A stretch of 64,000 bases of DNA, from NCBI RefSeq assembly GCF_000169155.1, contig NZ_AAWL01000002.1, positions 62,001 through 126,000 on the forward strand, given 5' to 3'. Within the stretch, counting starts at the first letter, position 1. Each line of letters begins with the position of its first letter. This document shows positions 29,040 through 30,836 of the stretch, in pieces. Both the position numbers and the translations under genes were made by a program. The notes below the pieces were generated by a model that saw only the letters and a program-made list of their open reading frames with translations, ran no database searches and was not told the origin of the DNA. Source of the stretch: Thermosinus carboxydivorans Nor1. GTDB taxonomy: Bacteria > Bacillota > Negativicutes > Sporomusales > Thermosinaceae.

Positions 29040-30836
29040 TTATGTCCGATAAACATTCATATCTTCGCTGAAGTGCTGAATAACTGTCTTAAATTCGCGG
29101 ATTTTGTCCATCATGTCCTGCAGTTTGTCGTTATACACCTGCACGGCGGCGCTCACTTCCTCACTGGCGGCCGAGTTTTCCTCAGAGATGGCGGCCAGCG
29201 ATTCGATCTTGCCGTAAACCTGGTTGAGACCGGCCATCTCCTCTTCCAGCTTGCCGGCCATTTCAACGATATTCTCCGCCACCCGATGGATATTCTCGAC
29301 ATGGCGGCTATTGCCAGCCACGACCTCGCGCAGTTGGCGGCTTTCCGCATCCAGTACGGCATATTCTTCCTCAATCATCGCCACGACACTGCTGATGATT
29401 TCCATCAGCACCTTGAGGTCGCGGGAAATGCTGTCCGAATGATGGTGGGACTGCTCGGCGAGTTTGCGAACTTCCTCCGCCACGACGGCGAAGCCCCGCC
29501 CATGCTCGCCGGCCCGGGCGGCTTCGATGGCGGCATTAAGGGCCAGCAGGTTGGTCTGACCGGCGATAGCCGCCACCAGCCCGGTGATTTCGTTGATTTT
29601 ACTGGCCTGGGCCTGCAGTTTCGCAGCCGAATCCTTCACATCGGCGAAGCGCTCCAGACTGTGAGCCAGTTTGTTGCTTGAAGCTTCCACCTCGGCAAAA
29701 CCTTTATTAATCTCGCACACTGCCGCCTCCAGCCGCTCTTTGTTGCGGCTTTGTTCATCGACAACACTGCGCAGCGTTTCCAGATTGCCGTTCAGGATAA
29801 TGACGGCCCCTTCCGTCTCCTGCGCCTGGTTAGTCGCGGCAGCGGCCACGTCGTTGACGACGCCGGAAATTTCCTCCGAGGTGGCGCGCATGCGGTCAGC
29901 CAGGCTATTAAAGTTATCTGCGTATTTATTCATCTCGTCGGTAATACCCTTAAACCCGGTAAAGTCCGTCTTGACCTGCTGCTTGTACTTGGCCAGCATT
30001 GCTACGATGGTCTCAAACTCATCGGCGGATTTTATGCTGGTTTCCGTAAAATAGCGGTGCTCTTGCAGCCCCTTAATTTCGTCCATTACCGCGCCGAGCG
30101 GCCTGAGCAACAGGGCCGCGCCAATACCGGCACCCACGCCGCTCACCAGGGCTGTCCACCAGGGCACGCTAAGGCCGACCAAGTTTAGCCCGGCGACGAC
30201 CGCCAGGGTTATCGCCATGGCCGCCAGACCGATCTTGCCGGCCATGTGGCGGATTACCCCCAGCGACAGCCACTCATTCAGCCGGTACCGCACGGTATGG
30301 GTGATAGGCTGGGGAAACCGGATCTTGATTTTCATGTGTTCGGGTGACGCTTCCAGGATTTCAGTCGTGATGGCTTCGTTAAAATATTCCGCCGCGCCGG
30401 CCAATAGACCCTTAAGGTAACCGAACATCCCCCGCTTAGAGCGGTAGCTTAGCACCGCCTCATATTCCGATACGGGGCTGATAAGAAGTTCCGGCGGATT
30501 GGCGCCGGGGATTCGTTTGACCATGACGACATGGACATCGTACATGGAGCGCAGGAAAGAATACAGGTTTTCCTGACGGAAAAAGGCCGGATAGGCCTGA
30601 GCAAAGGTGCGGATATTGTCCTTGCCGATGGTCAGCCACACCGCTTCTTCCGTCTGACCGGTCTTAGCGGCGATGTAGGCCGCAAATTTTTTCGGCTGTT
30701 CGTCTGCTACTTCTTCTGTCGGCAGAAAAATCTTGTCCCGCGGCCAGCCGACATGTTCCATCGCCTCGGCCGCGAGGTCCTCGCCCCACACATTGCGGGC
30801 GGTGTTCACCCAGGTACCGACAACAGTCCCTTTCAT
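29040..30836 (-). CDS. H-NOX chemoreceptor (heme O2/NO sensor fused to MCP)
   Basis: The 598-aa product joins an H-NOX heme domain (residues 1-190), two membrane helices (about 200-250), a HAMP-like linker and an MCP signalling domain with [19 protein letters not shown]. Compared from memory with the Thermoanaerobacter tengcongensis H-NOX, every key residue is at the same number: proximal His102 (YDVHVV), the Y131/S133/R135 heme-propionate motif (YRSKR), Pro115 and the distal O2-stabilising set Trp9, Asn74 and Tyr140. That distal set is associated with stable O2 binding in anaerobe receptors, so the protein is predicted to drive an oxygen response. The start is ATG 30836 (MKGTVVGTW), fixed by the H-NOX N-terminus rather than the longer frame. 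Confidence 0.95.

Follow-up and report, generated by a model that had tools for sequence, protein, structure and literature searches.

The window, the whole 64-kb stretch of Thermosinus carboxydivorans DNA analysed here, carries on its minus strand an open reading frame at exactly 29040-30836 that starts with ATG and encodes a protein of 598 amino acids; its H-NOX domain is followed in the same chain by a membrane hairpin of two helices and by a signalling domain of the MCP (methyl-accepting chemotaxis protein) type (Table 1). The Pfam HNOB profile matched residues 2-159 (E = 1.4e-42; 145.8 bits versus a cut-off of 25.5) over positions 1-162 of its 163, and Pfam MCPsignal (PF00015) matched residues 385-550 with an E value of 4.7e-33. 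Given a profile score above the curated cut-off, the presence of His102 and a Tyr-x-Ser-x-Arg motif, and the modelled fold, the protein is by sequence and model a member of the H-NOX family (Pfam HNOB). Kyte-Doolittle hydropathy exceeded 1.5 in sliding windows starting at residues 197-213 and 226-233, and a full-length model of modest confidence (mean pLDDT 71, pTM 0.42) placed membrane helices at residues 198-220 and 225-243, followed by a long helical hairpin made up of helices 328-441 and 447-557. An even number of membrane helices would place both the H-NOX and the signalling domain in the cytoplasm. The gene is the sole H-NOX of the genome, and its product accounts for one of 11 MCPsignal matches.

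Table 1. Positions of the H-NOX chemoreceptor gene, its parts and key codons, and associated genes (coordinates refer to the window unless another locus is named).
Feature	Position	Strand	Basis
H-NOX methyl-accepting chemotaxis protein, 598 aa	29040..30836	-	ORF and translation; Pfam HNOB and MCPsignal; relatives
H-NOX heme domain, residues 1-180	30297..30836	-	1xbn/1u4h alignment; AlphaFold2 model; PDB matches
Trp9 codon, distal network	30810..30812	-	Alignment; 46/46 readable MCP-fused relatives
Asn74 codon, distal network	30615..30617	-	Alignment; 47/47 readable MCP-fused relatives
His102 codon, proximal heme ligand	30531..30533	-	Alignment; invariant in the relatives' alignment A1
Pro115 codon, heme-distorting proline in homologue	30492..30494	-	Alignment
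Codons 131-135, Tyr131/Ser133/Arg135, YxSxR heme propionate motif	30432..30446	-	Alignment to homologue and relatives
Tyr140 codon, O2 hydrogen-bond donor in homologue	30417..30419	-	48/48 MCP-fused relatives, 0/7 stand-alone H-NOX
Two-helix membrane hairpin, about residues 198-243	30108..30245	-	Hydropathy and full-length model
MCP signalling domain, residues 385-550, with the tip of its hairpin near residues 429-444	29187..29684	-	Pfam PF00015; modelled helices
Small siroheme/4Fe-4S reductase-like gene (NIR_SIR), 225 aa, divergent from H-NOX	31090..31767	+	Pfam PF01077/PF03460
coo-type operon for CO dehydrogenase and energy-converting hydrogenase, on another contig	L066:5885-15988 (G000 contig C4)		Gene order and family matches

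The closest characterised system was the H-NOX-MCP of the thermophilic anaerobe Thermoanaerobacter tengcongensis (Caldanaerobacter subterraneus), known as Tar4 (PDB 1u4h, 1u55 and 1xbn), which likewise begins with an H-NOX domain and whose full-length form bears an MCP domain (PMC9814294); the best ten matches among solved structures were this H-NOX and its mutants. Alignment to 1xbn/1u4h (E = 1.2e-41) was gap-free up to about residue 165, with 38% identity over residues 1-162 (35-38% in the domain). A sequence-only reading of the window had numbered eight residues (Trp9, Asn74, His102, Pro115, Tyr131, Ser133, Arg135 and Tyr140) as in the T. tengcongensis H-NOX, and the alignment bore this out at 8/8 sites, with His102 and Tyr140, the two that reading had singled out for a check of register, in line with the structures. 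The nominal chance of eight matches at 38% identity is 3e-4, a figure that ignores the fact that such sites are picked for conservation. The two domains also share Phe78, Leu144 and the hinge glycines Gly71 and Gly143, and differ in that the window protein has Val5 for Ile, Tyr82 for Phe, Leu145 for Ile and Ala148 for Ser. An AlphaFold2 model of the domain (mean pLDDT 85.8) superimposed on 1u4h with a TM score of about 0.88 (E = 1.6e-19), and its 18 best PDB matches were all T. tengcongensis/C. subterraneus H-NOX, with NO-selective H-NOX proteins (Shewanella, Kordia, Nostoc) ranking lower at 14-19% identity. No cysteine was found in the H-NOX domain sequence, which rules out Cys/zinc redox sensing as in the V. 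cholerae H-NOX.

Relatives were drawn from genomes of the order, from a sample of the phylum and from named species of Clostridium, Pelosinus and Sporomusa. H-NOX was encoded in 16/28 genomes of the order and in 31/299 genomes of the phylum sample. Among 48 distinct MCP-fused H-NOX proteins, every one that was readable at the respective site had Trp9 (46/46), Asn74 (47/47) and Tyr140 (48/48). The seven stand-alone H-NOX of the phylum sample retained His102 (7/7) but had no Tyr140 (0/7), lacked Trp9 and Asn74 wherever these sites were readable, and had no MCP domain in frame, whereas the window protein has all of these features. Two short non-MCP rows with Trp9 (L059 and L061) were counted as front pieces of split MCP-type genes; at both loci an H-NOX-MCP gene apparently breaks into two frames about halfway through the H-NOX domain, by either a true disruption or a sequencing error. 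Because the Trp9/Asn74/Tyr140 set is present in all readable MCP-fused relatives and missing from the seven stand-alone proteins, it is, as far as these sequences go, the family default of MCP-fused H-NOX and not special to the H-NOX at 29040-30836. Thus, what had been described as a complete O2-binding residue set is indeed complete, but it is common to every MCP-fused relative sampled. The exceptionless co-occurrence of the triad with MCP fusion at readable sites supports the rule on more proteins; the triad alone is no predictor of O2 affinity.

Phylogenetically, one branch with support of 100/99 divides the MCP-type from the true stand-alone H-NOX, and since the MCP-type proteins fall to the same side of it, the two types are, on these alignments, the outcome of one old split and not of many independent events. 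A Fisher p of 5e-6 obtained alongside the tree was dropped because a quick MCP test had mislabelled four MCP-fused rows and kinship was ignored. On the tree the window protein is nested among the Sporomusaceae and their relatives, paired with a same-genus copy that is 96% identical in the H-NOX domain. The first scan returned 16 relatives of 598-599 amino acids, among them ten order-level orthologues of 598 amino acids each with a conserved C-terminus, and the MCP tip was invariant among relatives. The Sporomusa, Pelosinus, Lucifera and Anaerospora proteins, also of 598 amino acids, share the same pocket and 66-72% whole-protein identity, and a plasmid search yielded one distant match only. 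The H-NOX-MCP at 29040-30836 is thus an ordinary orthologue of a known family.

The host genome (2,889,774 bases in 49 contigs) encodes a flagellin and a cytochrome bd oxidase, the latter making O2 physiologically relevant to the host. At the start of the window lie genes for the C-terminal part of CheA, for CheW, for CheX/CheC and for a dCache MCP; the earlier observation that the H-NOX gene stands apart from these che genes was correct, the distance being about 24 kb. Two full-length cooS genes are present, one of them (L066) within an operon of the order cooM-K-L-X-U-H-hypA-F-S-C, the gene names being assigned from gene order and family matches; its content comprises membrane, small and large subunits of an ECH-type (energy-converting) hydrogenase, a ferredoxin, a CO dehydrogenase (CODH) and a MinD-like CooC. 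A coo-type cluster has been described for T. carboxydivorans (PMC6085454), and the species is listed among carboxydotrophs with a growth temperature of 60 °C (PMC6317499). Across the order, cytochrome bd was found in 15/16 genomes with H-NOX versus 8/12 without, too weak a separation for it to serve as a marker of O2 use, and flagellin was dropped as an explanation of H-NOX presence or absence since its occurrence in 27/28 genomes made it uninformative. Family f7 of the order (genomes G021-G026) has flagellin and mostly cytochrome bd but is without H-NOX.

Residues, modelled structure and homology together point to an O2 chemoreceptor that is anchored in the membrane, senses through heme and follows the T. 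tengcongensis (Tar4) pattern, an assignment that we regard as probable. With a distal tyrosine, a Trp/Asn network and a one-chain architecture, the protein as aligned and modelled is a probable member of the T. tengcongensis-type O2 chemoreceptors, and the proposal that its distal Trp/Asn/Tyr pocket is of the O2-stabilising type is backed by the alignment, the fold and the relatives alike. In the homologue, O2 sits on the ferrous heme and accepts a hydrogen bond from Tyr140, with Trp9 and Asn74 in support (PMC7356049). By analogy, His102 and the Tyr-x-Ser-x-Arg motif would hold heme in the cytoplasmic H-NOX domain, O2 entering the cell by diffusion would bind the ferrous heme, and the bound O2 would take a hydrogen bond from Tyr140, itself held by Trp9 and Asn74. 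Binding would relax the heme distortion against Pro115, and the distal subdomain would turn against the proximal one about Gly71/Gly143, a rotation about two conserved glycines having been described for the H-NOX family (PMC7108781). The change would then travel, as is presumed for the homologue, through the membrane hairpin and the coiled coil to the MCP tip and alter CheA activity.

MCP-fused distal-Tyr H-NOX proteins of obligate anaerobes bind O2 and are probably O2 sensors (PMC8738867, PMC9814294). The role proposed for them rests on spectra, structures and gene fusion, and the sensory function of the homologue has been described as not yet demonstrated in the living conditions of the bacteria (PMC9814294). 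The suggestion of a heme-based O2-avoidance receptor splits into two parts, of which the O2 part is favoured by the pocket and by this published reading, while avoidance is plausible for an anaerobe but sequence does not tell in which direction the cells respond. Nor does sequence fix the O2 affinity: the H-NOX of Clostridium botulinum (SONO), by published description also of the distal-Tyr type with the same residues closest to the ligand, has a KD(O2) of 53 µM versus 44 nM for that of C. subterraneus (T. tengcongensis) (PMC7356049), and because the same distal residues give an approximately 1000-fold spread, the pair is a warning against reading affinity from residues.

That O2 is the only ligand goes beyond the evidence, since the host carries a coo-type operon, in which it is unlike the T. 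tengcongensis system, and the characterised homologue also binds CO and NO (PMC9814294). In a host with genes for living on CO, this gas may compete with O2 for the receptor heme. As a rival reading, the protein could be a chemoreceptor for CO, or one for O2 that CO tunes: its ferrous heme would be partly or wholly CO-bound, its output would reflect CO or the CO/O2 ratio, and cells would be guided towards CO or away from it. Such a role, for which the two cooS genes and the six-coordinate CO complex formed by the homologue (PMC9814294) speak, is in our judgment unlikely: at every key site compared, the pocket has the same residues as those of relatives in the order and beyond that are mostly not known carboxydotrophs, cooS is common across the order through acetogenesis, the hydrogen bond of the distal tyrosine favours O2 over CO, and the H-NOX gene and the coo operon lie on different contigs. 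The narrower proposal that this coo-bearing host has turned an H-NOX pocket of the O2 type to chemotaxis by CO or the CO/O2 ratio, with CO as the natural ligand or co-ligand, seems to us decidedly improbable. Because the genome has both a cytochrome bd oxidase and an operon of the coo type, the most interesting alternative to O2 sensing is nevertheless that CO competes for the heme or is itself sensed, and a host with CO-oxidation genes would offer a good test of whether such receptors report O2 amid CO.

A chemoreceptor for NO or nitrosative stress, with the divergent nitrite/sulfite-reductase-like gene next to it as the link to N-oxide chemistry, appears improbable as well. All H-NOX proteins bind NO tightest, with affinities in the order NO > CO > O2 (PMC7356049), but NO-selective H-NOX proteins are without the distal tyrosine that is present here as Tyr140. 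The stand-alone NO-selective type (Shewanella, Vibrio, Nostoc) shares the fold, His102, Pro115 and YxSxR with the window protein; membership in this class, which works with a kinase or cyclase partner, was rejected on account of Tyr140 and the MCP domain. The neighbouring gene matches the C-terminal part of NirB (TIGR02374, 116 bits, below the cut-off) and may be a sulfite rather than a nitrite enzyme. Beyond the window, 10 related loci of the order (some Sporomusa, Pelosinus and an uncultured relative) have a reductase-like gene adjacent and divergent to H-NOX, but because the gene also occurs in H-NOX-free genomes, and elsewhere than beside H-NOX in others, it was not taken as evidence for an NO role, and it probably does not belong to the receptor. 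A decayed or non-signalling copy, finally, is very improbable in view of the intact 598-amino-acid frame, the equal length and conserved C-terminus of the ten order-level relatives, the invariant MCP tip and the near-identity of the same-genus H-NOX domain. The O2 receptor of the Tar4 type thus remains the preferred reading.

Between the divergent genes, an exact GTGA-N6-TCAC palindrome was found in 9/11 reductase/H-NOX pairs (L004, L005, L007-L011, L075 and L076), versus 0.014 expected in shuffles, a rough figure given that the shuffles keep base content only and the loci are related. Palindromes of this form are of the kind bound by CRP/FNR-family regulators. Their distance was 39-88 bp to the start of the reductase gene and 125-174 bp to that of H-NOX; none was present in the intergenic region of the window (30837-31089) or in L077, where the called starts of the two genes are only 69 bp apart. 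The neighbourhood was therefore dropped as a clue to the ligand, the window being without the palindrome, the palindrome of the relatives lying nearer the reductase than H-NOX, and the reductase occurring also without H-NOX.

On the other side of the H-NOX gene, at about 28591-28911 on the plus strand, lies a Cys-rich open reading frame of FPRxC-type repeats with a 15-base tandem unit and no Pfam match, and in the genome of the same genus (L069) a related frame lies downstream of H-NOX. Most of the Sporomusa, Pelosinus, Lucifera and Anaerospora orthologues have genes for a sigma-54 activator, a TrmB-like protein and a DUF2935-like protein downstream, of which the window has none. In Sporomusa and Pelosinus (L003:6905-10567, L005:6942-10566 and L010:7089-10565) these genes come after H-NOX in that order; the activator is DhaR-like and the TrmB-like product a methyltransferase, the TrmB-like and DUF2935-like names being taken from a reading of the sequence.
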